Source of the DNA: Pontederia crassipes
Taxonomy: Eukaryota; Streptophyta; Magnoliopsida; Commelinales; Pontederiaceae
Assembly: GCA_030549335.1 (NCBI GenBank)
Contig: CM060197.1
Coordinates: 46,465,654 to 46,529,653, forward strand
Direction of reading: 5' to 3'
DNA: 64,000 bases
The notes under the pieces were generated by a model. It was not told the DNA's origin. It searched no databases and saw only the letters and a program-made list of their open reading frames with translations. Shown here piece after piece: positions 4,743 through 58,608 of this stretch (positions are counted from its first letter, which is position 1; each line of letters starts with the position of its first letter). The position numbers and the translations under genes were made by a program.

Positions 4743-6208
4743 CGAGTAAATTTTAGTCATAGTCATTCAACTTAAGGGGTGTTCCCAGTAAGGTCATCCA
4801 ACTTCATTTCGTAACATCAAGATCATCTAACTTTAGAAATATTTCATCCTTGTTCATCACGACCGGTTATAGCTAGTAAACCTATTAACTGTTGATGTGG
4901 ATGTTTAAGTGACACCACGTCAGCATTGTCTCTCTCCTCCACGTCAGATTAAAAAAATAAAAAATGCCACGTTAGCATTTTTGTCTTGCTTTGTCCAAAT
5001 TTAATTTTGTATCTACATGATCATCCAACTTTTCAAAACTTTCAAACAAGGTCATTCAACTTTCCAAATTTTCAATCGTGGTCATTATTAAAAGTTTAAA
5101 ATAAATATATAATAAATAAATAAAAATAAAAAAATTGAAGGCACTTAGACTAACTCGGTATATTTTTTGGCACGATCCACTCGGATCGTGATGACCAAAT
5201 TTTTAATGTGTATTAAATACATAATACTATGACAATTAATAATTTTTAATTAAGGAAATAAAAAGTAAATTAATAACATATCGATTATATTTTTTGCCCT
5301 AAAATTTGAAATAATAAAAATACTATAATTAGAAAAATAAAAATATTTTTCACACCAAATTTCATCAAGGGCCGAACCAAATCGTACTAGATCATCCAAT
5401 GGGGTGCTGCGCACGGCCCAACATCCAACGGGTTGTTGAGCCATATATGCTTTTTTTATATAATATTATGATAATGATTAAGTTTGATATTTAATATTAT
5501 GATAATTAATAATTTGGCTCAACAATCCGTTGGATGTCAAATCATTTCCAACACTCCGCTAAACGACCCTATATGATTTGACTCAGCCTCAATAAAATCT
5601 CACACGAAAAAATATTATTATTTTCTAATTATAATATTTTTTATTATTTAAAATTTTAGGTAAAAAATATAATTCGTATGTTATTATTTTATTATTTTTA
5701 TTTTCTTAATTAAAAATTATTAATTATCATAATATTATATATTTAATACACATTAAAAATTTGGTCGTCTCGATTCGAGTGGGTCGTGCCAAAAAATGTA
5801 CTGAGTTAGTCTAAAGGGCTTTAGTTTTTTATTTATTTTCATTTATTTATATATTTTTTATTATTTTAATCTTTTAAGCATGACTGCGATTAAAAATTTG
5901 AAAAGTTGAATGACTTTGTCTGAAAGTTTTGAAAAGTTGGATGATCATGTAAAAACAAAACTAAGTTTGGAGAGAACATAAAGAAAAAATGTCTGACGTG
6001 GTGATGAGAGAAAATGTTTACGTGATGTCACATAAACATTTATGTCAGCGCCACATTAGCGGTTAATAGGTTTATTGGCTATAACCAGTCGTGCTGACCA
6101 TAAATGAAATATTTCTAAAGTTCGATGACATTGATGTTACAAAATGAAGTTAGATGACCTTACTGAAAACACCCCCTAAGTTGGATGACCATGGATGAAA
6201 TTTATCTC
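4743..6208. mobile_element. Mutator-like foldback element (MULE-MITE)
   Basis: The whole 1.47 kb is one long inverted repeat whose arms meet near 5475. The ends (CGAGTAAATTTTAGTCAT and its complement at 6190-6208) begin arms of roughly 700 bp, including the mirrored pair around 5400 and 5520 (CAACATCCAACGG and CCGTTGGATGT). The flanks TTCATGTCT (4734-4742) and TTCATCTCT (6209-6217) form a 9-bp duplication with one mismatch, as expected for Mutator-like elements. There is no coding content. It is inserted in the internal region of the LTR element 527-6742. A half copy lies at 55920-56522. Confidence 0.85.
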
Positions 6209-11450: not shown

Positions 11451-11834
11451 TTAGCAGTGACCTGGATAAACACACTTACGAGTGTAAGGCTGTCCAGGTT
11501 TCTTGCCGAAACCTCCACCTGCCCGGTCTTTATCCAGAGGCCCGTAACCAATGTGCTTACTAAGGAGCTGCCTCCTCCTACTTGCCGAGGTTGACGACGA
11601 CGACTCTGACAGCGCCGGTAGTCCCCAGAGCTCCGCGTCCATTCCGAGGGATTCCGCGATGATGAAGGAGGACGACGAGCTGTTGAAGATCACTGCTACA
11701 TCATCAGTACTCTTCACGTACGGGGCGTCATTTGGAACGGGAAAAGTGGCAGCGTCGGCCGCGGCGACGGCGACGACGGCGAACAGGAGAGCGGCAGCTA
11801 ACAGTACCTGCTTAGATGATGATCTTGTTCCCAT
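11451..11834 (-). CDS. RALF-like secreted peptide precursor, 127 aa
   Basis: The ATG at 11834 was chosen because MG-SSSK plus a hydrophobic run (residues 9-27) is shared by the paralogs. The open frame continues 54 codons upstream but across the likely TATA box. Residues 1-27 are a signal peptide. The propeptide carries a serine run and the cluster motif AESLGMDAELWGLP (60-73). RRQL at 87-90 fits the S1P cleavage rule RRxL. The mature part has YGPL (97-100), a glycine-rich linker in place of the first cysteine pair, PYTRKC, and cysteines 121 and 127 (C-x5-C). The peptide is likely secreted to the cell wall and sensed by FERONIA-type receptors. Single exon, as is usual for RALFs. Confidence 0.85.
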   Translation of the reverse strand: MGTRSSSKQVLLAAALLFAVVAVAAADAATFPVPNDAPYVKSTDDVAVIFNSSSSSFIIAESLGMDAELWGLPALSESSSSTSASRRRQLLSKHIGYGPLDKDRAGGGFGKKPGQPYTRKCVYPGHC

Positions 11835-11927
11835 CCCCCCTTCAAGATATAAGGAGTTAAAGTAAGAAATTATATATGAGGTTGGGACTTGCCACCGTAA
11901 TATGCATATGAATGAGTTCTTCCTGAA

Positions 11928-11940
11928 GGATCTATATATG
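11928..11940 (-). promoter_or_regulatory. TATA box of RALF gene 11451-11834
   Basis: On the minus strand CATATATAGATCC lies about 100 bp upstream of the ATG, a normal position for a short plant 5' leader. The copies at 20426 and 24392 have TATATAGA-type boxes at about the same distance, so this promoter was duplicated with the genes. Confidence 0.5.
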
Positions 11941-12479
11941 GAGTACGAGTAGCTTGATTGAGGTCCAGTCATGCACATGTGATTTTTTGGTACCAAGAAC
12001 TAGCCAGATAAGACCGAGTGGTTGGGAGTAATGGGAGTTTTGGTTTTTTTTAGTCTTTGGTGTGTACGAAGTAGTCTGGACCGTTTAATGGCACTTCGGC
12101 CCAATTTGAATGTCGAAAAAGTTAATCTCCGATCACATTATCAAATTCGTAAATTACGATAATTTTTATTAGATTATAATGTATTTCATTCATTTTAAAG
12201 AATATCATAACATAAAAAATAACACCTGACAAGATTAAATATATACATTATAAATTATGCACGCATTATCTCTCACTAATTATAATCTATCTTGCATTTG
12301 ATTGTATTTTACAAATTATCTATTTAATTCAATAGATATTTCTCAACCAAAGAGCACCCTCACGTCACATACTTTAATTCGTGAGGCACTCAACAAAAAC
12401 ATTTTAATTTCATTTTTTACTTTTTAAAAAATTTACACTTGAGATCTTACTTAAACTATTTATCATGCTACCCAATCTT

Positions 12480-20054: not shown

Positions 20055-20426
20055 TTAGCAGCGACCTGCATAAGTACAGCCATGTGTGTAAGATTGTCCC
20101 GGTGCCTTGCCGAAACCTCCCCCTGCCTGATTAGGATTCAGAGCCCCATAGCCAAGCGTGCTCAGGAGCTGCCTCCTCATACTCGCCGACATCTCCGACG
20201 GCGCCGGCAGCCCCAGCAGCTCCCCCTCCATTCCGAGGGACTCCGCAATAACGGAGGAGGATGTTGATGAACTGCTTATGATCACTGCAACATCATCAAC
20301 CCCATTCATCTTCGTGGCCCGGCCGTCATTTGAACTGGGGAAAGTGACGGCGTCGGCGGTGACGATCAGGTCGGAGAACAGGAGAGCAGAAGATATGAAC
20401 AACAGCAGCTTAGATGATGATCCCAT
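20055..20426 (-). CDS. RALF-like secreted peptide precursor, 123 aa
   Basis: The start at 20426 gives MGSSSKLLLF, matching the paralogs; a longer frame exists (17 more codons) but begins without a signal sequence. Signal peptide residues 1-26, ending TADA. The propeptide has the serine run and AESLGMEGELLGLP (61-74). RRQL at 84-87 is a good S1P site. Mature region: LGYGAL (91-96), glycine-rich linker, QSYTHGC and cysteines 117 and 123. It has the cleanest family features of the minus-strand set and probably encodes an active peptide. A conserved 3' block follows at 18936-19290. Confidence 0.86.
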   Translation of the reverse strand: MGSSSKLLLFISSALLFSDLIVTADAVTFPSSNDGRATKMNGVDDVAVIISSSSTSSSVIAESLGMEGELLGLPAPSEMSASMRRQLLSTLGYGALNPNQAGGGFGKAPGQSYTHGCTYAGRC

Positions 20427-20526
20427 CTCCCCCCTCCTTGAAGACGAGAATTCAACTATTTGGTTGGCACTTGCCACCGGGTATGCACTGGATCAGATGC
20501 ACGCGTTGTTCTTCCAGTTTGCCTTG

Positions 20527-21892: not shown

Positions 21893-22515
21893 TGGCGGAG
21901 CCAAAAATATTTCATAGGAGGTTCACTTTTCATTTTAATTTTAGAAAATTTTAAAATAATTATATAACAACACTAAATATTACTTAAAGAATTAATTTCA
22001 ACCATGTTTCACTTTTTGAAAATTGTCGATAATTTCACAATTTTCTGATATGGATGTGATCTTTTTTAAAATATTTCTTTAACACCATGATAAATTGTGA
22101 AAGAAATTTATTCTTTTTCAAGATATACCAAAGAAAATATGTCTATGATGAAATAAAAAGAAAAATTAAATTATGACTATAAACATATATTAATTGTTAT
22201 GAATTAAAAATTATATTAAAATATCTTGAGTTTTGGATGAAAGCATAACATATTATTCATGAAAAAATAAAATTAATTTAAAAATAATTTACAAAAAATA
22301 GATTAAAAAATAAGATGTAAAATACCTTGAATTAAAAGGTAGAGAAGAAGGCAAAATGGAATCCTAGTTTGAGGGAAAAATATTTCGGAGACTACAATTA
22401 AGAGGAAAAAAATAGAATATTAGCGCCTTACTAATACCTTAATACCTACTAAGATATATTTAGTTGGCCAGTGGGTGCAAGTATACTCACCGGCATCCAC
22501 GTGCCTCCGTCCAAG
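21893..22515. mobile_element. hAT-like element, degenerate
   Basis: The left end CAGTGGCGGAGCC equals the TIR of the hAT at 2180; the right end GTGCCTCCGTCC is a weak inverted match. The related block at 54180-54230 lacks it (GATATAGAAGATTATTAG is continuous there). No clear 8-bp duplication remains, so exact limits are uncertain. Confidence 0.5.
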
Positions 22516-22824
22516 ATTATTAGCGTCTTACTAATTATAATAAAAAATAGAATAATATTTTTATAATAAAGTGGTGAGTCCAGAATATTAAATCCGGATA
22601 TTCTTTTGATGACCTCTCCATGAGACATTATTAAAATTTATTTTAGATTGGCCGAACGTATATATAAAATTCAGGTGGATTGCTCTCTATCAATTTGTGA
22701 AGGATTTCATTTTCTCTACAAGCTTGCGGCTGATTTTTTTTTTCATTCCAAAGTCATATTTCTTCATGTTTTTTTTTCAATTTGTGTTACATGCGTCTAG
22801 GGGAAATTTTAATTCTGAAGTTTT

Positions 22825-22871
22825 ACTCCCACATCAATAATTATCATTAACAGATAATTATTAATAAGCTT
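22825..22871 (+). promoter_or_regulatory. USE-like plus TATA-like promoter of candidate ncRNA, copy 1
   Basis: CTCCCACATCA is a near match to the plant snRNA upstream element RTCCCACATCG, and is followed after about 22 bp by ATTATTAATAAG. In plants this USE-TATA spacing (about one helical turn shorter than in Pol II snRNA genes) marks Pol III snRNA-type genes. Both end positions of the USE are changed here, so this copy may be weak. Confidence 0.35.
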
Positions 22872-22884
22872 GTCGCTCAAGCCA

Positions 22885-23058
22885 AAAGATCGGGTTAGTG
22901 CGGTATTGATGAAGGGACAGTTAATTGGGCCGGACCAGTTTTCTGCAGTTTGATTAAACTGTCCCAAATGTTGGGCCGCATTTCCGTATTTGACTGCGCT
23001 ACCCACTGACCAATCAATAAGTAGGTCCCATAATCATCAATCCACCCAATCCCTTTTT
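22885..23058 (+). ncRNA. Candidate structured Pol III-type RNA, copy 1
   Basis: Starting roughly 25 bp past the TATA-like box, the segment holds ATTGATGA-A-GGGAC (22905-22918), which is complementary to GTCCC (23025-23029) and TCATCAAT (23034-23041), so the two ends can close one long helix. A TTTTT run at 23054-23058 would end a Pol III transcript. Between them are TTGGGCC and ACTGTCCCAA-like arms. Compared with the copies at 56975 and 57709 about 70 bases are missing inside. It matches no RNA I know (not U6, U3, 7SL or MRP by their hallmark motifs). The ends are inferred from motif spacing. Confidence 0.35.
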
Positions 23059-23175: not shown

Positions 23176-23740
23176 GTCTAGAGGTGTAAGAAAAATCCGA
23201 CCAACCCAAAAAATTCATTCGACCCAAAAAAATCGAATCGAAAATTAGGGGTCCGTATATGATTTAGGACAATTTTCAATAAATTAAAATTCACCCGTTA
23301 AAATTAGGGCCCCATCCAAAAAAACCATAGGGGCCGTGGAGCTCAATTTTTATTTATGATTTTTTATTTATATAATTAATACATATGTTATTAATTCTTT
23401 TATTATAGATATAATATTTTTGTATAAAATTTCATACTTTTCTATCACATTATCAAACTCTAATTTAATAACTTTAAAATTTTTTTAGTATATTTTATAT
23501 TTAATATAAAATTAAATATTTTGATATTAATTTTAAGTTATTAAATATATTTTCAAAATATAATTATATAAAAGTAGGACTCTGAAAAAATCACCCGAAA
23601 AACCGACCCGCTAAAGGGTGGTTTTTATTTTTTTCAAAATGATTTTAGGGTGGTCTTTCTAATTTTAAAAATCGATCCGAAAAATAACGATTATTTTTTT
23701 AAATCGAAAACCCGAACCGACCCGAATTACTTTCGCCCCT
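23176..23740. mobile_element. hAT-type MITE
   Basis: It is flanked by a perfect 8-bp duplication AGATAATA (23168-23175 and 23741-23748). The related blocks near 33000 and 57375 read AAAGATAATACAAGG with no insert, giving the empty site. The ends GTCTAGAGGTGTAAG and TTTCGCCCCT are imperfect inverted repeats, and CGACCCGAA/TTCGACCC motifs occur near both ends. A related element is at 57996-58545. Non-coding. Confidence 0.85.
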
Positions 23741-24026
23741 AGATAATACAAGGATGTCTTAGATATCTCACTTAAAAAAAATAACAAATTTATTGTTACC
23801 TCAAATGATGATAAAGATTTTAATAAAAATCTGCAAATATAAAATCTCGCTCTATTATCATATGATCGTCATCCGACAGCTTAGGTTTGTTAAGTAATAC
23901 TGGTTGCACGAAAAATTAATCGATTGATACTTAAAAACTTAACATATGACAGCATCACAATTACAATATGGAAGGAGTTTTATCCAAAGCTTGAATATTA
24001 TTTTCGACCATCGAACTTGATCAAAT

Positions 24027-24392
24027 TTAGCACTTAGGTGGATAAGGGCACGGACGGATGTAAGACTTTCCACGTCCCCTGGCGAAACCTCCCCCTGGAT
24101 TGTTAGGATCCAGAACTGGGTACGGAATAACCGAGTCGAGGAGCTGCCTCCCCCTCCTTTCCAAAGTCGTCGCCGTCCTCGTCAGTGACGTCGGCAGTCC
24201 CCAGAACTCCCCTTCTGTTCCGATGGACTCGGCGATAATGGAGGAGGATGAGGAGTTGTTGAAGATCACTGCAACATGATCAGTGCTCTTCAGGTGTGGG
24301 GCAATATTTGGAACGGGAGCGTCAGCCACGACGACGACGAACAGTAGAGCGGACGCAAGCAACACCAGCTTGGATGATGATGTTGATCCCAT
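24027..24392 (-). CDS. RALF-like secreted peptide precursor with altered cleavage site, 121 aa
   Basis: The frame begins MGSTSSSKLV with a signal peptide to about residue 24 (VVVVADA). The propeptide keeps AESIGTEGEFWGLP (54-67). Where the paralogs have RRQL, this copy reads ERRGRQLL (78-85): an inserted pair destroys the exact RRxL spacing, so S1P processing may be changed or lost. The YISY/YxxL region reads VIPYPVL (88-94). Cysteines 115 and 121 close KSYIRPCPYPPKC. It sits in the unit that also carries the candidate ncRNA at 22885 and the hAT at 23176. Intact frame, probably expressed; the activity of the peptide is uncertain. Confidence 0.8.
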   Translation of the reverse strand: MGSTSSSKLVLLASALLFVVVVADAPVPNIAPHLKSTDHVAVIFNNSSSSSIIAESIGTEGEFWGLPTSLTRTATTLERRGRQLLDSVIPYPVLDPNNPGGGFARGRGKSYIRPCPYPPKC

Positions 24393-29853: not shown

Positions 29854-30207
29854 TTAGCAGCGAGGTGGATAAGCGCACCGACGGGTGTAAGGATTTCCAA
29901 GTCCAGTGCTGAAAACTGGCCGGTTTTTAAGCAGCGGTTCGTTCCCGATGGTGCTCAGGCGCTGCCTCCTACTCGTCGACGGGGAAGACGCCTCTGACAG
30001 TACTGCCGGTAGTCCCCAGAACTCTCCGTCCATTCCGAGGGATTCCACGATAATGGAGGAGGACGAGGAGCCGACGATGATCCCTGCAACGTCATCACCA
30101 TCGTCTATGTTCATGTCCGGGCCGTGATTTGAACTAGGAAAAGTGATGCGACTGCGAACAAGATGAAGAGCAGCGGCTATCACAACCAGTTCAGATGATG
30201 ATCCCAT
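29854..30207 (-). CDS. RALF-like peptide precursor with weak signal peptide, 117 aa
   Basis: It starts MGSSSELVVI like its paralogs, but the hydrophobic stretch is only about nine residues and is then broken by His and Arg (LHLVRSR, 14-20), so secretion is doubtful. The propeptide keeps VESLGMDGEFWGLP (54-67). The cleavage region is SRRQRLST (79-86): RRQR, not RRxL. The YISY region is lost (TIGNEPL, 86-92). GNPYTRRC and cysteines 111 and 117 are well kept. The mature tail is under the family pattern while the processing signals have drifted, so this may be a gene on the way to decay or one with changed processing. Its upstream DNA differs from all other copies. Confidence 0.7.
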   Translation of the reverse strand: MGSSSELVVIAAALHLVRSRITFPSSNHGPDMNIDDGDDVAGIIVGSSSSSIIVESLGMDGEFWGLPAVLSEASSPSTSRRQRLSTIGNEPLLKNRPVFSTGLGNPYTRRCAYPPRC

Positions 30208-31490: not shown

Positions 31491-32524
31491 ATTATTTTAG
31501 AACTAATGTGAATCCTACATATAATAATTCATTACACCGAAAAAAATTTTAGAAACTAAACGCATTAGTCTTTAGAATTTCAATTTTAATCTTTCATATT
31601 TTTTTACAATAAAATATCTTGACTCAGTGACCAAGATTCTTTATTAATCCTTAAATAATGATTTTTTAGTGATCACGAATAAAATTTTGATTTTAAATAA
31701 ATAAGAATTTGAGACTAATATCACATTAGTCTTTAATATTTATATTTTTAAGAACTAAATTGATCCCTAAAAAATTTACCTTCAAATCATAATTTTGTTG
31801 ATACATGAGTTCTTCCTCTCAGAAGAACTATATTCCATGTTGAGAACATTGTTGTGTTAAGAAAATTATATTTTAGAACAATTTTAAAATATCCAAACGG
31901 GCCGTAGGAAAACAGGGACACGACCTAAGTTTGACTTTTATATTTTGTAGCCTTTGACTTTAGCCTTAATATTTTTAATCACATCCATGTTCCCTCTTTA
32001 CACTTGGGGAAAAAGAAGAGAGAGACGAAAGAAGCATGAAAAGAAAGGATCCACTGAGCTCATAAGAAAGTGGATGACAACAGAATGATAGGGAGTTTGC
32101 AGTGACAATAGAAAGAAAAAGTATATAGTCTTTTTTGTGAGTGGATGAGATTGGAAAAAATTAGTGTTGTACTGAAATTAAATCAATACATGTATAGATT
32201 AAATCTATACTTTAAAATAAAATGATATTAAATTAAATTAGCTCATAAGAATCGCCAGATATTCTTTATGACATGTATGGTCGTTTACGTACTTTCTGTA
32301 ATTAAATCTATACTTTAAAATAAAATGATATTTTCTGTAATTAAGCGGTGAGTTCAAAATATTAAATCCGGATATTCTTTTGGCGACGTCTCCATGCGAC
32401 ATTATTAAAATTTATTTTATAATTTTAATATCAATTTGCGGCTGATTTTTTTTTTCTTTCATCCCGAAGTCATATTTCTTTCGGATGTCATCAAATTTGA
32501 GATTGAATAAGACCTGAACTTATT

Positions 32525-32887
32525 ATCCCACGTCGGAGAAATTATTTGTGATAAAATTACACAAATCACCTTTTTTCCGGTCGTTGTGAATAAAATTGTT
32601 TATGGCCATCGTATACCTTTTTATGTTTTTTTTTTCAATTTATGTTACATGCGTCTAGGGGAAATTTTAATTCTGAAATTTTAGTCCCACATCGGGTTAG
32701 TGTTGTATTGACGAAGGGACACTTAATTGGGCCGGACCAGTTTCGTGTGCAGTTTGATAAATCTTGCCCAATATTGAATTGGTGAGGTGGCAACTGTTTG
32801 AAAGTGAGCGAGTTGGATGCCGACACGGATCCGACTGACCAATCAATTAGTAGGTCCCATAATCATCAATCCACCCAACCCCTTTTT
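32525..32887 (+). ncRNA. Candidate structured Pol III-type RNA unit, copy 2 (TATA lost)
   Basis: A perfect USE GTCCCACATCG is at 32684-32694, and a second USE-like ATCCCACGTCG at 32525-32535. About 55 bases between USE and GGGTTAGTG, including the TATA-like box, are deleted relative to copies 1, 4 and 5. The closing helix is ATTGACGA-A-GGGAC against GTCCC and TCATCAAT near 32857-32873, with one mismatch. A TTTTT run is at about 32883. This copy is probably dead as a promoter. It sits in the unit that carries the RALF remnant 33299. Confidence 0.3.
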
Positions 32888-33298
32888 AATAATTCTTATT
32901 TAAACGATTAGCAGGTCCCATTTTAATTTTTATTCTTTTATTTTATAAATCATTTATTTTATAATAAATTTACGTTGCAAAAAGAAGATAAAACAAAGAT
33001 AATACAAGGATGTCTTAGTTATCTCACTTTAAAAAAATAAAAAAAAATTGACAAATTTATTATTACCTCGAATGACGATAAAGATTTTAATAAAGATCTG
33101 CAATATAAAATCTCGCTCCATTATCATATGATCGTCATCCGACAGCTTAGGTTTGTTAAATAGATATTGCTGGTTGCACGAAAATTAATCGATTGATACT
33201 TAAAAAATTAACACATGACAGCATCACAATTACAATATGGAGGGAGTTTTATCTAAATCTTTAATATTATTTTCGACCATCTAACTTGATCAAATTTA

Positions 33299-33642: not shown

Positions 33643-36600
33643 CACTACAACAATATTACGGATCCGATCACTGGCGACCAGATCCGGCCGCCGACGCGCG
33701 GAGCTAACAGCCAGCGACCAGATCCGGCTGCCCGCGCGAGGATCCGGCAGCCAACGCGCAAACGAACGCCCGCGCGAGGATCCGGTAGCCAGCGTGCGGA
33801 TACGGCCGCCCGCGCGCGGATTCCGCCAGGGATTGGATCCGGCTGCCCGCGCGCGGATCAGGCAGCCAGCGACCGGATCCGGATGCCCGCGTGAGGATCC
33901 GGCAGCCAGCGCGCGGATCTGGCCGCCCGCGCGAGGATCCGGCAGCCAGCGTGCGGATACGGCCGCCCGCGCACGGATTCGGCCCCAGCGACTGGATCCG
34001 GCCGCCCGCGACCGGATCTGACTGCCTACACGTGGATTTGGCCGCCAGCGACCGGATCCGTCCGCCCGCGCGCAAATCCGGCCGACCGCGCGCATATCCA
34101 ACCCCCAACGCGTGGATCCGTCCACCAGTGATCGAATCCGGCCTCCCGCGCGCGTATCCGACCGCCCGTGCGCGTATCCGATCGGCCGCGCGCGGATTCG
34201 GCCACCGACGAGAGAAAGGGACAGGGAGAGGGAATGAAGGAGAGTGGTCGGAATTGTCAGGGAGTCGTCGCCGTCGTCGCCTTGGGAGAGAGAGAGGAGG
34301 AGGGTGGGAAATATAAGAAGAGAGGGGACGCGAGAAGGAGAAGGTGGGGGGGGGGGGGGAGTAGGTGAAAAAATATTTGAGTTAGTGATGGATACATTCT
34401 TCGAAATTAGTGAAGGATAGGGTAAAATTGTACGATTAGTCCCCCAACTTTGAGTCGATTTCAATTTGTAACCAAAACGTCCTTCATCTTTGATTTTCTT
34501 GCATGATTGGTCCCCTTAACCGGTAATAGTAAGTTTCTCGGTTACCTTGTGTACGTGGCTGCCACGTGAGTCATTTTTCTTTCATCCATGTCATTCAAGT
34601 CATCCACGTCATTTAACGCTACTAAACCGGATAATTATACAAATAGTCCCCAATTTTTGAGTTTATTTTTAAACAGTCCCCTAACTTCAATTTATAACTA
34701 GAACGTCCTCCAACTTTGATTTTATTGCACGATTCATCCACTTGACAAGCAACAGACAGTCTCTCGATTACCTCGCTGACATGGAATAATAAAATATAAT
34801 AAAAAAACTTTAATTTATTGACATGACATAATAAAAAAATATTATAAAAAATTAATAAAAAATAAATATGACAACGGGCGTCAACGAACTCGAGAGGCCC
34901 AATTCCCCCGTGTGAGCTCCGAGAGGGGGACCGATGCCAGCGCCCCTATCTACCAGCTCATCGGCGTCGAGCTGGGAGAAAGGGGCGTCGACCCTCCTTT
35001 TCGTTTTTTGCACGCGATGAGAAGCAAAAGGGGGGCCACACTCCAGTCTTCCAGCTCGCGCGTCGACGGACTAGAAGAGGGAGGCGCCGATCTTCCTTTT
35101 CGTCCTCACACGTGATGAGGAGCAAAAGGGGGGGGGGCGACGTTCTCCTTTGACGAGCTCGCATAGGGGGCACCGATGAGCTCAAGTCATTATTTTTATT
35201 AATTTTTATAATATTTTTTATTTTCATTATTATATTCTTTTTTATTGTGCAATGTCAATAAATTATTTTTTTATTATATTTTATTACATCACATCAACAA
35301 GGTAATTAAGAGACTGCCTATTAATGATCAAATGGACGAATCGTGCAATAAAATCAAAGTTGGGGGATGTTCTAGTTATAAATTGAAATTAGAAGACCGT
35401 TTAAAAATTGACTCAAAGTTGGAGGACGATCTGTGTAATTACCCATTTTAGTAGCGTTAAATGATGTGAATGACTTGAATGAAAGAGAAACGGCTGACGT
35501 GGCGGCCACGTACGCAAGGCAACCGGAAAACCTACTATCACTAGTTAAGGGGATCAATCGTGCAAGAAAATCAAAGATGAAGGACGTTCTAGTTATAAAT
35601 TGAAGTTGGGGGACCGATTATAAATCGACTCAAAGTTGGGGAACTAATTGTATAATTTACCCTGAAGGATATGATATCCGTCGGTAATAATATATCTTTT
35701 ATTTATATAAGAATTTTTTTATTAAATATTATAATAATATATATATATTAACATATTAATATATCTAATTAGAAACATTATTAATATCATATTATATTGT
35801 TAATAAATGATACTAATTATATATATATATATATAGATATATTGATAATAAATGATACTATTTTAATTATCGTATTTCCTTCGACATTACCGACGGATGT
35901 GAATCCTTCGGTAATTTCAAAGGCATTATCTTTCGGTAGTTACCAATGAGTTATGTCCTTCAAAATTATCGACGGATGCTAAATCCTTTGCTAATTGCGT
36001 CGGCGCTATCCTTCGAAAAATAAAATAATAATATATTATTAATGTCTTTAATTACCGAAGGAAAGCTTCTTCGAAATTACTGAAGGCTTTAAAATCCATC
36101 TATAATTTCGAAAGAAAATACCCATCGATAATTAAACTAATATCATATTAAAACCATATATTAACATTAATAATATTATATGAATTAATATATATGAATA
36201 TAAACATGAATACTATCGTATTATATTTATGAATATTTTAAGTAAATGGAAAAGATATGTATTATATTATAAACATTAATAATAAATTATTATTTTAATT
36301 ACTGAAGGAAAGATCCTTCGAAATTGTCAATAATTTCGAAGAAAAATACCCGTCGATATTAAAATAATATTATTCATTATCACTTTTTATAATACATGTC
36401 TATCTTTTTATATATTCTTTTCTTAATGCATTAATAAATATTTATAATATAACATAATATTACTAATTATTGTAATTATATAGAAGGACATCCATCGATA
36501 ATTTTGAAGGCATTTTCCGTCAGTAATTACTGACGGGTAATGTCCTTCAAAATTATCGAAGGATCTATCCTTTGGTAAATAAAATAATAATTTTATAATA

Positions 36601-48312: not shown

Positions 48313-51300
48313 CACTACAATAAAATAGATTATTACAGACGGTCAGAATTATCTGTAATTTGGCCAGAACCGTCGGAAATGATATTTTCGGACGGTTTTT
48401 TTGACGGATAGCGTCCGTGAGAAAACAAGGCGTTGCAAACGATTTGTGACAGTTATTTTTGAACTGTCGATATCTTCGACGGTCCAGCTGGCAGGTGCGA
48501 CCGTCGAACGTTAAAGATTTAAGACGGTTTGAGCCATCGATATGTATCGACGGTTTGAACTATCAATACTATTGACGGTTTGACCCGTCGGCTCCACAAT
48601 TGATTTTCGACGGCTCAAATCGTCATTAACTTTAGACGGTTAAAATCGTCGATGCTTAGCGACGGTTGAGACCATCTATAAGTTTGCATGGACGATTAGA
48701 ACCGTCGATAAGTATTGAAAAAAGTATTTGTCGATAATTAATTTTTAGCTATTTCCGACGGTTCAAAATGTCGGAAACAAAAAAAAATTGCTGAAATTGA
48801 CTGTCCGATGAGATAATACAACACAATATCCAAACATTTGGATCATAATATGTAACAAAGATTTGTTGTTTCCATCACATAATAAATCAACACAACACAA
48901 TATCCAAACATAATATCCAAGCATAATATCCAAACACAACCCATAATATCCAAACACCATTCGAAACCCAACACATAATTGTCCAACACCATTCCAAACA
49001 TGTTAATGTTTTAGAAACATAAAAATGGTAAGCAAAGCAAAGAGAAGTCTTAGTCACGATGAAGATGGACACATGGGCCGAGCAAAGAGATGTCTCGCCA
49101 TTCCCATCGGATCTCAAGAGCTTTTCGCAAGGCAATTCGAACATCACTGCATAGCACGAAGAGTCGGGAGAAAGTTAGTACCTTCTTCAAAAAAACTAGG
49201 AGAATGTGTACAAAACCTAGGGGAAGAATTTGAATTCAACAACTATAGCAACTTCTTCTAGACACCTTCTGGTTTTAATTAATGAAGAAAATGCAGCAAG
49301 AAGTAAAGTTTTCATGAATATGTGACAATCATGACTTTTCATGCCAAATAAACGCAAGTTATTCATGTCCACACATCGGGTCAGATTTGATGCATAACCA
49401 TCTGGCATTCTCAGCGCTTGGATCCATCGACACACTTGAGTCTTCTGCTCTTTAGTGAGAACATAACTTGTCTTTGGCTTAGATAATCTACCATTAGGTA
49501 AAGTAGCTGAGTGCAACTCTAGCCTTCGATAGTACTCCTTCAAATCTAGTCTCGCCTTTAGGTTGTCCTTTGTTTTACCCTTAATATCCATTACAGTGTT
49601 GAATATATTTTCAAACACATTTTTTTCAATGTGCATGACGTCCAAATTATGACGTATCAAACAATCAGACCAATAAGGTAAATCCTAGAATATACTTTAT
49701 TTGATCCAGTTATGACAAACACCATACTCATTGTATGTGACATTTGGATCGTTGACAATTTTACATAAAACATTGATAATGCGACGTAATTGAGCTCTTG
49801 AGCGTCTGACCGGAGCCATGTCTTCTACAACCCTATTCCGTCGAAATGCATTTCGATTATTTCTATACGGATGATCAACTGTAAGAAACTATCTATGGCA
49901 GTCAAACCAACTATTTTTACTCCCATTTCTCAAAGTGAACGCATCTGAGTGTTTCATGCAACATGGAGGAGCTAATTTCCCTGCGGTCATCCAACCAGAC
50001 AACATCCCACAGGCAGGAAAAACATTAATGGTCCACAATAAGACAACTTTCAATGTGAAGTTTTATTTGGTCGACACATCATAAGCGATGACACCATCCA
50101 CAGTTCTTTTAACTCGTCTATTAGAGACTGTAAATATACATCTATCCTCCGTTTAGGACTGTGAGAGTCAGGAATAATGCATGTCAAAACATATAAGGTG
50201 CGGACATATAAATCTCAGGTGGTAAATTATATGGTGTTACTATGATCGGCCAACAAGAATAAGGAACTGAAGTCTGACCATATGGTGTAAAACTATCCGC
50301 GCATAATCCGAGCCTTATGTTCTTTTCGTCCCTAGCAAAATTTGCATGCTTATGATCAAAATGTTTCTACGCTTCACCATCTGATGGGTGAAGCATGACA
50401 TCTTTAGAAGTATTATGCTGTGCATGCCACTTCATTTGCGACGCTGACCCTATAGACGAGTATAGTCTTTTAAGTCTTGGAATAACATGCAAATAATGCA
50501 TTCTTTTCACAGCCACTTGAGTCTTATTAGTCACTCTATATCGTTCGGCCCCATAAAATTTGTATTCATTTAGATTGATGTCATCGTCGTAATATAACAT
50601 ACAACCATCACGACAATAATCTATTTTAGTTAAGCCAAGACCAAGTTTACTAACCAATCTTTTTGTCCTATAAATTTTTTTTAGGAATGCGAGTCCCAGT
50701 TGGTGTGACCTCTTTTAAAATATCTAGACATGCATCAAAACATGCATGTGAAATATTGTGCTCGACTTTCAGATTCAATAATCTAACAACGAGTGATAGT
50801 TCCAAACGACTTTCACACCCGGATCATAAGGGTTGGCTCGATGCATTTAGCAAGTCATAAAAATCTCTTGCTTCTCGATTTGGTGTCTCTTCATACTGCT
50901 CAAATCTAATATTCTCATACTCAGTTGCAGCTGCGTCGTAAACTAACTATTCATATTGCAAAGTAAATCCTTCTTGAGGATCGATAAAATGGAGACTTAA
51001 ATTTGGTACGCTTGTCGAAGGTGCTCCTTCACATAAATCATCTCATTGTTAATAATTGTGTTTGAAACCCTTTCTATATAAGTGAACCTTAACTGTCTCT
51101 GGCGTTTGTAACTTTGTGCTAACACATTTCAAGCAAGGACACCTAATTGTTTCCTCCCGTTGATATTGCAAAGACTGACAAACCACACTAACATATTAGT
51201 CAACGTCATCTATGAACTCGTGTCAAACCTCTACGACCGGGATTATTTTTATTGTACATGCATCGACGATGATTCAAGTATGACATAATGTCTGCATTAT

Positions 51301-53999: not shown

Positions 54000-54650
54000 T
54001 TTAAAAACCTAATTATCTTTTGCTTATGTTATTTTATGAACCTTTTGGGATTTGCATTACCTTTTAGAGTTCCTATTTAAGACGTTGCTAATTAAATGTA
54101 AAAATGATTTGATTTTTTAGTTCATCGTTCTTTTGTTTACTCTTTTCTCTCTCTTTTTTTTTCCATTTGACTTTTTTACATCCTTCCAGACTCTCGATAT
54201 AGAAGATTATTAGCATCTTATTAATTCAAAATTATAATAAAAAATAGAATGATATTTCAAGTGACGACTCCATAATATTAAATCTGGATATTCTTTTGAT
54301 GACCTCTCCATGAGACATTATTAAAATTTATTTTAGATTGGCCGAACGTATATACAAAATTCAGGTGGATTGCTCTCTATCAATTTCTGAAGGATTTCAT
54401 TTTCTCTACAAGTTTGCGGCTATTTGTTTTTCATCCCAAAGTCACATTTCTTTCGGATGTCTTGAAATTTGAGATTGAATAAGACTTGAGCTTATTATCC
54501 TAGGTCGGAAAACTTATTTGTGATAAAATTACACAAATCACTTTTTTTAATAGTTGTGAATAAAATTATTTATGGCCATCGTATACCTTATTATGGTTTT
54601 TTTTTTCAATTTATGCTACATGCGTCTAGGAAAAAATTTAGTTCTGAAAT
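54000..54650. repeat. Duplicated upstream block (second copy), right part
   Basis: TTATTTTATGAACCTTTTGGG, GATGACCTCTCCATGAGACA and GGCCGAACGTATATA match 21705-22660. Between 53925 and about 53985 there is extra DNA (ACCTGTATCTACAGGG) not seen in the other copy. The hAT at 21893 is absent here. Confidence 0.75.
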
Positions 54651-54653
54651 TTT

Positions 54654-54955
54654 AGTCCCACACCGATAATTGTCATTAACAGATAATTATTAATAAGCTT
54701 GTCGCTCAAGCAAGAAAACCGGTTTGGTGTGGGATTAATTTAAGGGACGGTTTATTGGGCCGGGCCAGTTTCGTGCAGTTTGATTAATCTGGCCCAAGAA
54801 CTGGATTGGTGAGGTGGCAACTGGTTGATAAGTGTGCGCCTCGGATGGCCGACACGGAAGCGTGGCTTCAAACTGGGCCGTGTTTCCGTATTTGATTGCG
54901 TTTACCCACAGACCAATCAATTAGTAAGTCTCATAATCATCAATCCCTTTTTTTT
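54654..54955 (+). ncRNA. Candidate structured Pol III-type RNA unit, copy 3
   Basis: USE-like GTCCCACACCG (54654-54664, one mismatch) is followed by ATTATTAATAAG after about 22 bp. The body contains TTGGGCCGGGCCAG with CTGGCCCAA (hairpin), GGTGAGGTGGCAACTG, CACGGAAGCGTGG and a terminal ATAATCATCAATCC, then a long T-run (about 54946-54955). The 5' closing arm has drifted (GGGATTAATTTAAGGGAC), leaving GGATT/AATCC and a GGGAC/GTCTC pairing. Transcript start is inferred at about 54715. Confidence 0.35.
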
Positions 54956-55919: not shown

Positions 55920-56522
55920 GATAAGAAAATTATGATAATTAATAACTTTTAATTAATGAAAATTATTAATTATAATATTATTACAAAAAGGATGATAAAA
56001 TTATTAATTATTATAATATTATATATTTAATACACATAAAAAATTTGGACAACTTAATCCGAGTGGGTCATGCCAAAATATGCACCGAGTTAGTCTAAGT
56101 ATCTTTAATTATTAATTATTAATTATTTATTATTTATTTTAAAGTTTTAATGATGATCGTGATTAAAATTTTGAAAAGTTAAGTGATCTTATTTGAAAAT
56201 TTTAAAAAATTGGATGATCATGTAAATATAAAATTAAATTTGGACAGAGTAGAGAAAAAAATGTTGACGTAGTATTTTTTGTTTTTTAATATGATGTGAA
56301 GGAAAGAGAAAATGTTGATGCGGTGTAAGCATCCACGTCAATTATTTATAGATTTACTAGCTCAAATCGGTCGAAATGATCGCGGCCGAAATATTTCTAA
56401 AGTTCAATGATCATGATATTACAAAATGAAGTTGAATGACCTTACTAAAAATACTCCAAAGTTGAACGATCTTAGTAGGAATACCTCCTAAATTAGATGA
56501 CCATGACTGAAATTTACTCCCA
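55920..56522. mobile_element. Half of a Mutator-like foldback element
   Basis: This matches the right arm of 4743-6208: CCGAGTGGGTCATGCCAAAA, GCACCGAGTTAGTCTAAG, ACAAAATGAAGTTGAATGACC and the terminal GACCATGACTGAAATTTACTC. Near the end the CCTTACTAAAAATACTCC segment is repeated once more. The left arm is missing apart from the innermost AT-rich part, so the element is broken and immobile. Confidence 0.75.
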
Positions 56523-56974
56523 TAAATAATAATCAATTGATCAATAGTAATAATTATATATATCGTTAATTACTAATGTTCAATATCTATTCAATTCAAT
56601 ATCAATTATATCTCGCAATAGTTTACGGGAGGTTTAAAATATAACCCTTCTTGATTATGATGTCTTGATGACATGATGTGGTAAGAATAGTTAGAGGAAT
56701 GGTTTATATGTTGACTTATGCAGTGGATGTGGAAGGAGAAGTAGAAATTGACTTTTTGTCATATTTCTTTCGGATGTCTCCAAATTTGAGATCGAATAAG
56801 ACCTGATCTTATTATCCTAGGTCGGAGAAATTATTTGTGATAAAATTACACAAATCACTTTTTTTTAGTCCTTGTGAATAAAATTGTTTATGGCCATCGT
56901 ATACCTTTTTATGATTTTTTTCTTTTTCAATTTATGTGACAGAGGCCTAGGAGAATTTTAATTCTGAAATTTTA

Positions 56975-57279
56975 GTCCCACATCGATAATTGTGATTAAC
57001 AGATAATTATTAATAAGCTTGCGTCTCAAGCCGAAGGATCGGGTTAGTGTGGTATTGATTAAGGGCCAGTTAATTGGGCCGGACCAGTTCGTGCAGTTTG
57101 ACTAATCTGGCCCAAGTATTTGGATTGGTGGCAACTGCTTGAAAGTGAGCGCGTCGGAGGCCGACACGGAAGCGTGGATTTAAAACTGAAGTGGGCCGCG
57201 TTTCCGTATCTAATTGTGCTACCCACTGACCAATCAATAAGTAAGTCCCATAATCATCAATCCACCCAACCCCTTTTTT
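56975..57279 (+). ncRNA. Candidate structured Pol III-type RNA unit, copy 4 (best preserved)
   Basis: Perfect USE GTCCCACATCG (56975-56985), then a TATA-like ATTATTAATAAG about 22 bp on (57006-57017). The inferred transcript starts near 57035 (around AAGCCGAAGGATCGGG) and ends in a T-run at 57274-57279, about 245 nt. Helices visible by eye are TTGGGCCGGA against TCTGGCCCAA, CACGGAAGCGTG with a GAAG loop, GGAAGCG against CGCGTTTCC, and a closing stem using GTATTGATTA and TCATCAAT. The 5' arm reads AGGGCC here in place of AGGGAC, so the GTCCC pairing has one weak position. Confidence 0.4.
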
Positions 57280-57708
57280 AATAATTCTTATTTAAACGTT
57301 TAGCAGGTCCTATTTTGATTTTTATTCTTTTATGTTATAATAAATTTACCATGCAAAAAGAAAATAAAACAAAGATAATACAAGGATGTCTTTGTTAAAG
57401 ATTTTAATAAAAATCTTTAATACAAGGATGACGATAAAGATTTTAATAAAAATCTGCAATATAAAATCTCCCTTAATTTTTTTGCCATCCCAAAGTCATA
57501 TTTCTTTCAGGTATCTTCAAATTTGAGATTGAATAAAACCTGAGCTTATTATCCAAGGTCGAAAAATTTATTTGTGATAAATTTATACAAATCACCTTTT
57601 TTTAGTCATTGAGAATAAAATTGTTTACGGCCATCGTATACTGTGCTAAGGTTTTTTTTTCAATTTATGTCACATGCTTCTAGTGGAAATTTTAATTATG
57701 AAATTTTA

Positions 57709-57981
57709 GTCCCACACCGATAGTTGTTATTAGCAGATAATTATTAATAAGCTTATCCCTCAAGCAGAAAAAAAGCGGGTTAGTGTGGAATTGATGAAGG
57801 GACGGTTAATTGGGTGCAGTTTGATTAATCTGGCCCAAATATTGGATTGGTGAGGTGGCAACTGTTTGAGAAGTGGCGCGCTTCGGATGCCCAACACGGA
57901 AGCTTGGATTTACTGGGCCCGTTTGCATTACCCACAGACCAATCTCTCCTATAATCTCATCAATCCACCTAATCTCTTTTT
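57709..57981 (+). ncRNA. Candidate structured Pol III-type RNA unit, copy 5
   Basis: USE-like GTCCCACACCG (57709-57719), TATA-like ATTATTAATAAG about 22 bp on. The 5' arm AATTGATGAAGGGAC is intact, and the 3' arm TCTCATCAATCC pairs at its distal end. GGTGAGGTGGCAACTGTTTG and CACGGAAGC are kept. The first hairpin is truncated (TTGGGTGCAG). A T-run is at 57977-57981. It follows copy 4 in tandem, the two units being joined near 57480. Confidence 0.35.
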
Positions 57982-57995
57982 GATAATTCTAAAAA

Positions 57996-58545
57996 AGGGT
58001 GTAAGAAAAACTCGACCATCCGAAAAATCTATCCGAATCAAAAAATACTCATCTGAATTGAAAAAAAATCGAATTTTAGGATTCCAAATATGATTTAGGG
58101 TAGTTTTTCATAAATTAAAAATCATCCGTTAAAATTAGGGGCCCACTCGAAAAAAATCGTAGGAGCTCGTTGAGTCCGTTGTTTATATCATTAATTCATA
58201 AGTTATCTATTTATATATATATATATAATACTTTTTGTATAAAATATCATACTTTCTTATAATTTGGTAAATTTAAAATATTAATAGTATATTTTATATT
58301 TAATATAAAATTAAATATTTTTAGTTTTAATTTCAATTTAATATATAATTTTATAAAATATAATTATATAAAAGTAGGGGTCCAAAAAACTATTCGAAAA
58401 ATCGATCCGTGAGAGGGTGATTTTTATTTATTTTAAAAATGAGTTAGGGATGATTTTTTTAATTTAAAAAATTAATCCAAAAAATAATAAATGACTTTTT
58501 TGGACCGAATATTCGACCCGACCCTAACTACTTTTACCCTTATTA
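57996..58545. mobile_element. hAT-like MITE related to 23176-23740
   Basis: GGGTGTAAGAAAAACTCGACC-like start and CTACTTTTACCCTT end, with the same interior order (AAATATGATTTAGGG, TATAAAAGTAGGG, GACCCGACCC) as 23176-23740. It sits at a different place in the unit (after GATAATTCT) so it is a separate insertion. The target duplication is unclear. Confidence 0.65.
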
Positions 58546-58608
58546 ATTACTAGGTCCCATTTTAATTTTTATTCTTTTATTTTATAATATATTTATAATA
58601 AATTTACA

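Follow-up and report, generated by a model that had tools for sequence, protein, structure and literature searches.

Comparison with described loci

Interface-induced MIRNA loci of Cuscuta campestris, which Hudzik et al. reportedly described in 2023, have a U6-like promoter. These loci are many, and each has a USE 54 to 55 bp ahead of the start and a foldable transcript that ends in poly-T, according to PMC10745700 (in excerpt) and PMC10226582; the former gives the USE-to-start distance of 54 to 55 bp as a mark of Pol III in plant USE genes. Plant type 3 Pol III genes carry the USE RTCCCACATCG, a TATA-like box close by, and a T-run, and their TATA box lies one helical turn nearer to the USE than in Pol II genes, where the spacing is four turns, as stated in the excerpted text of PMC9845283. 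Plant telomerase RNA (AtTR/AtR8 and its orthologues) also has a USE, a TATA box, and a terminator, with a transcript of approximately 260 nt in Arabidopsis (PMC6765143, in excerpt).

The 64-kb stretch of DNA analyzed in this study (the window) contains five copies, A to E, of an element that has, at the sequence level, a USE, a TATA-like box at the Pol III spacing, and a T-run. The USE, the TATA-like box, their short spacing, and the T-run are as in the type 3 genes for U6 and U3 (excerpt of PMC9845283), whereas the body contains no recognizable U6, U3, 7SL, MRP, or other Rfam family and decays between copies. The USE, TATA box, and terminator are also shared with plant telomerase RNA, and the predicted length of approximately 235 nt compares with approximately 260 nt in Arabidopsis (excerpt of PMC6765143); unlike telomerase RNA, the candidate locus has no permutation of the telomere template on the transcript strand. 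The Cuscuta MIRNA loci are similar in the USE-to-start distance of 54 to 55 bp, the foldable body, the poly-T end, and the multiplicity of loci, but the predicted body is branched and approximately 230 nt long (folds judged by eye), in contrast to the compact precursor hairpin of Cuscuta.

As stated in the initial annotation, no hallmark of U6, U3, 7SL, MRP, or telomerase RNA was found: the window gave no Rfam match at the gathering score, and lenient Rfam scans of all five copies gave sub-threshold matches only, the best of which was snoR09 with 23.7 bits against 50. The sub-threshold matches, i.e., sR20, snoR09, sR11, Afu_300, a viral frameshift element, a Pseudomonas sRNA, and an lncRNA exon, were rejected. 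The telomerase template was sought on the transcript strand as a telomere unit extended by one base, and no exact permutation of six telomere units was present on the + strand of any of the five copies; CTAACCC is found on the - strand of A, B, D, and E. A C/D snoRNA (TGATGA and CTGA, by eye) was dropped because CTGA lies far from the 3' end and TGATGA falls inside the closing helix, and a MIRNA reading, in which the closing helix would enclose a very long loop (by eye), was also set aside. Four stretches were examined for stop-to-stop frames of 45 aa or more. The Pfam search covered one of the frames through the elements, 57102 to 57278, which matched no family with an E value of 0.01 or better, so a coding reading may still apply. 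In the search for further relatives, a 20-mer had no match in viral contigs, and an 18-mer matched 9 viral and 24 prokaryote stretches. These 33 loci were not accepted as relatives; their profile matches are weak and short (best E 0.008), coincide with the seed 18-mer where positions were compared, and are read as chance. Literature matches to exact USE and USE-like 11-mers included no plant Pol III or transposon title among the matches listed.

Copies and their common origin

The five copies start at positions 22826 (A), 32684 (B), 54655 (C), 56975 (D), and 57709 (E), and all are homologous and located on the + strand, which agrees with the like orientation of the five in the initial annotation. 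Profile searches of the 64-kb window returned these five copy sites, and all other matches had E values of 0.89 or worse. Parts have been lost in four of the five copies, of which D is the most complete. Copy A (22826 to 23058) ends in T5 and is missing approximately 70 nt of the body. Copy B (32684 to 32887), which also has T5, is without the 56-nt leader that includes the TATA box and without approximately 50 nt of the 3' body, and ATCG is found at both borders of the stretch in D that matches the missing leader. Copy C (54655 to 54955) has a long T-run and has lost the 3' CACCCAA arm, and copy E (57709 to 57981) has T5 and has lost one side of hairpin 1 and the GTCCCATAA arm.

Homology extends past the element on both sides, i.e., approximately 250 to 300 bp upstream of the USE and also downstream. 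Within the window, the segments 54441 to 54946, 56758 to 57263, 57495 to 57990, and 32469 to 33117 are mutually alignable, and 22513 to 22764 aligns with 54203 to 54452. Downstream of the element, A, B, and D are still homologous, with 91 to 94% identity over approximately 45 columns, and the homology of copy C is weak (66.9%). In copy E, a 545-bp segment (57998 to 58542) lies between the element and the point at which homology is regained (58546 to 58607). The tree of the five copies, which sets C and E apart from A, B, and D, contains two short inner branches, neither of which has full support. Since the flanks are homologous on both sides, the copies count as one ancestral event; they are one ancestral stretch of a single origin that was spread by segmental duplication.

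The 545-bp segment of unit E is related to a segment of unit A (23183 to 23741); the two are AT-rich, approximately 550 bp long, 72% identical, and located at different points of the duplicated unit. Units B and D retain the empty site that corresponds to the segment of unit A, which is bordered by GATAATA on both sides, so insertions that followed the duplication are recognizable in these units. The AT-rich segment resembles a non-autonomous DNA transposon that entered the units once they had been duplicated.

The initial annotation spoke of RALF units with which a promoter relic may have been duplicated. One ORF (10 to 315, + strand) does match Pfam RALF (E 1.7e-5), but four clustered ORFs on the - strand (11451 to 11996, 20055 to 20477, 24027 to 24392, and 29854 to 30207) did not match RALF even at an E value limit of 10. 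One of the four weakly resembles the RALF ORF (E 4e-4 in a single comparison), and these ORFs could be RALF-like genes that have diverged or could be of another kind. The window further contains a GC-rich minisatellite with a 20-bp period (33660 to 34223) and, on the - strand, an ORF (49217 to 49660) that we take by eye to resemble a CACTA transposase fragment and that matched no Pfam family with an E value of 0.01 or better.

Promoter-like motifs

The USE RTCCCACATCG or a near match in each copy, a TATA-like box approximately 22 bp beyond it in four copies, and a T-run of five or more, all described in the initial annotation, were recovered. Copies B and D carry a perfect USE; a single mismatch is present in C and in E, and two mismatches are present in A. 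In every copy except B, which has none, the TATA-like TATTAATA begins 22 nt past the USE, and a T-run of at least five is found downstream in all five copies. In copy D, the USE-like GTCCCACATCG (56975 to 56985, + strand) is an exact match, TATTAATA is at 57008 to 57015, and the terminator-like T6 run is at 57274 to 57279, both likewise on the + strand. The longest invariant run among the columns in which A, C, D, and E all have a letter is CAGATAATTATTAATAAGCTT, which spans 21 columns including the TATA box and is reached by 127 of 5000 column shuffles; copy B was omitted from this test because it has no leader. On the other hand, the USE itself is not specially conserved, with 3 variable columns of 11 against 98 of 311 in the rest (p=1).

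With at most one mismatch allowed, the USE has five matches in the window against 1.17 expected, and a single homologous family accounts for four of them. In 150 runs, order-3 Markov simulation gave 0.027 exact USEs per 64 kb, 0.0067 combinations of exact USE, TATA, and T5 per 64 kb (one event in 150 runs), and 0.047 such combinations per 64 kb when one mismatch was allowed. The composite is unusual for one window, and a 500-Mb genome would, by this model, hold tens to hundreds by chance. An unlikely alternative is that the element is ordinary intergenic or Pol II promoter-like DNA in a duplicated unit, in which the USE, the TATA-like box, and the T-run occur by chance. T5 at the required distance is present for 51% of places and the TATA-like word for 8.5%, as this alternative would have it, whereas the rarity of the exact composite argues against it, as does the coincidence of the predicted start, the helix foot, and the T-run in copy D.

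Organization of copy D

The start of copy D was predicted from the rule of 54 to 55 bp between the USE and the start, as given in the excerpt of PMC10745700. The position 55 nt past the USE is G57041, and the predicted closing helix, formed by GGGTT with AACCC, begins at this base. The predicted body extends from this base to the end of the closing helix (57041 to 57272, + strand), and the T6 run starts one base beyond the helix; a T5 run within 2 nt of CCC is found at just 2.9% of CCC sites in the window. The promoter-like anatomy that was initially proposed is borne out in copy D, in which the predicted start is the foot of the closing helix. The agreement of the predicted start, the helix foot, and the T-run, a post hoc observation on the descendants of one ancestor, would be the strongest point in favor of a Pol III gene.

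Two hairpins are predicted within the body on the + strand. Hairpin 1 (57074 to 57115) has a 10-bp outer stem of TTGGGCCGGA and TCTGGCCCAA (z -3.59), and hairpin 2 (57166 to 57207) pairs ACGGAAGCGTGG with CCGCGTTTCCGT (z -3.91) as an alternative to CACG-GAAG-CGTG. The 149-nt 5' part of the copy folds no better than shuffled sequences (z -0.06). Three of the 22 TGGGCC/GGCCCA sites in the window are in copy D (57075, 57109, and 57192), and hairpins that arise from palindromic motif pairs, e.g., TTGGGCC with GGCCCAA, are consistent with ordinary DNA.

The pairing arms and hairpins that the initial annotation assigned to a shared body do exist as motifs, but they are scattered among the copies, none of which keeps every part. 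ATTGATGA, GGGAC, GTCCCATAA, and TCATCAAT are found together only in copy A, which also has the worst USE, and copy D has neither an exact ATTGATGA nor an exact GGGAC, with one substitution in each of these 5' arm motifs. TTGGGCC and GGCCCAA occur in the same copy only in C and D, and CACGGAAGCGTG is likewise confined to C and D. The observed/expected CpG ratio of the bodies is 0.56 to 0.91 against 1.08 in the window, as methylation decay would produce.

Conservation of RNA structure

The initial annotation proposed a new structured Pol III RNA family. The anatomy, the internal hairpins, and the whole-body z (-2.99) of copy D, the invariant TATA segment, and the mean pairwise identity of the body (0.839, compared with 0.793 in the upstream block and 0.634 in the downstream block) would be in line with a living family of this kind; we nevertheless regard such a family as improbable, since no copy is complete, no Rfam family is matched at the gathering score, the 5' part of copy D folds only as well as shuffled sequences, and the comparisons below gave no sign of a preserved structure.

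Covariation, whose absence the initial annotation had named as a refuting result, was detected neither by pair counts nor by RNAalifold among the five paralogues, a sample that gives the structure tests low power. None of the 39 pairs in the closing stem, hairpin 1, and one small hairpin was changed on both sides in the five copies. In the same stems, 92.6% of 175 cells were paired compared with 92.8% after shuffling, and the covariation score was 0.054 compared with 0.055. A control in which the structure was slid by one column gave one double-changed pair with far fewer cells paired. The covariation term of RNAalifold was unfavorable (+4.82), and the one double-changed pair among its 42 is within a short side hairpin.

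The stems are not detectably more conserved than the other parts of the body (18 of 66 and 48 of 133 columns variable, respectively; p=0.26), nor is the body detectably more conserved than the 5' flank plus leader (68 of 200 and 30 of 111, respectively; p=0.25), with alignment columns of fewer than four letters left out of the counts. The 3' flank, in which 32 of 47 columns are variable mainly since C and E depart there, was omitted from the comparison of body and flank because of the insertion in E and the weak alignment of C; were it included, the body would appear more conserved than the flanks.

The whole body of copy D folds with a z of -2.99 on the + strand and -3.75 on the - strand. Among 160 random places in the window, 11.3% have a z of -3 or lower, and the + strand value of copy D in that run (-3.86) is reached by 7.5% of places; in a GC regression over 320 windows, copy D stands at 8.75%. 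The + strand folds of the other four copies are matched by 22 to 31% of random places, and the - strand folds of the five copies by 7 to 40%. For this window, the fold of copy D is unremarkable, and the opposite strand folds with about the same strength. The former result fits ordinary DNA, and the latter fits an inverted-repeat element. With no covariation, no detectable excess conservation of stems or body, an unexceptional fold, and decay in four of the five copies, the proposed RNA family is left unsupported; the structure tests are an absence of support and not a disproof.

Inverted repeats of the element

A single insertion of a MITE-like or fold-back element into the ancestral unit, whose imperfect inverted ends mimic a closing helix and whose edge matches the USE by chance, is a somewhat doubtful explanation and the main rival of the favored one. 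In the consensus, pairing between the inner arms exceeds that of 997 of 1000 shuffled sequences, and the outer inverted pair, formed by the USE-TATA leader with the sequence after the T-run, is reached by 12 of 1000 shuffles, or by 33 of 1000 with wider arms. GTCCCA flanks the outer arms on both sides (by eye). Related fold-back sequence is present elsewhere in the window, where a 1.46-kb palindrome (4747 to 6204) that is 76% self-complementary and a related arm (55997 to 56469) constitute a fold-back element. However, in the inverted-repeat test of the individual copies A, C, D, and E, from which B was left out, 1000 resampled sequences scored as well as the extended repeat 9 times for A, 97 times for C, 14 times for D, and 107 times for E, and the four copy scores (16.6 to 21.5) are below the 95th percentile of random window positions (25.1). 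The five copies in the window all share their flanks and offer no different insertion sites among them, and neither an empty site nor a target duplication was established for the element.

Origin and possible transcription of the locus

The explanation that we favor, at somewhat short of an even chance, is a relic: one Pol III type 3-like locus with a USE and a TATA box was duplicated, and its copies are decaying, with transcription possibly persisting at copy D. It was anticipated by the initial annotation as a promoter relic duplicated together with RALF units; a relic duplicated with its neighboring units fits best, and the RALF part is only partly confirmed. The relic is preferred over a new RNA family because there is one duplicated ancestor and no sign of a preserved RNA fold. 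The exact USE in B and D, the equal spacing of TATTAATA in four of the five copies, and the T-run of at least five in all of them point to such a relic, and the USE, being no more conserved than the rest, and the chance composites expected elsewhere in a plant genome speak against it, as does the lack of a relative among known RNAs in the Rfam scans of the window and the copies.

The ancestral locus would have consisted of a type 3-like Pol III promoter (USE plus TATA), an inverted-repeat-rich body of approximately 230 nt, and a T-run, and we infer that it was transcribed by Pol III. A larger unit containing the locus would have been multiplied by segmental duplication, after which the copies decayed. 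If transcription persists, SNAPc and TFIIIB would assemble on the USE and TATA box of copy D, and possibly of C and E, and the RNA would be initiated near 57041 and terminated within the T-run (57274 to 57279), with a length of approximately 235 nt. Such an RNA need not have a conserved fold or function. It is very improbable that copy D is an active Pol III gene whose product, approximately 235 nt long, is a fast-evolving RNA not described before, with its start at G57041, a closing helix, and a T6 end, in which the promoter and the ends would be kept and the body would be free to change; a gene of this type would be comparable to the USE-driven MIRNA loci of Cuscuta.

If copy D is transcribed, the few plant Pol III RNAs with USE-driven expression would gain a non-housekeeping member, and such promoters would be seen to multiply via segmental duplication. 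If the locus is a relic, a module of USE, TATA box, and T-run can be inherited five-fold by duplication without a conserved RNA, which would be a caution for promoter-based searches.
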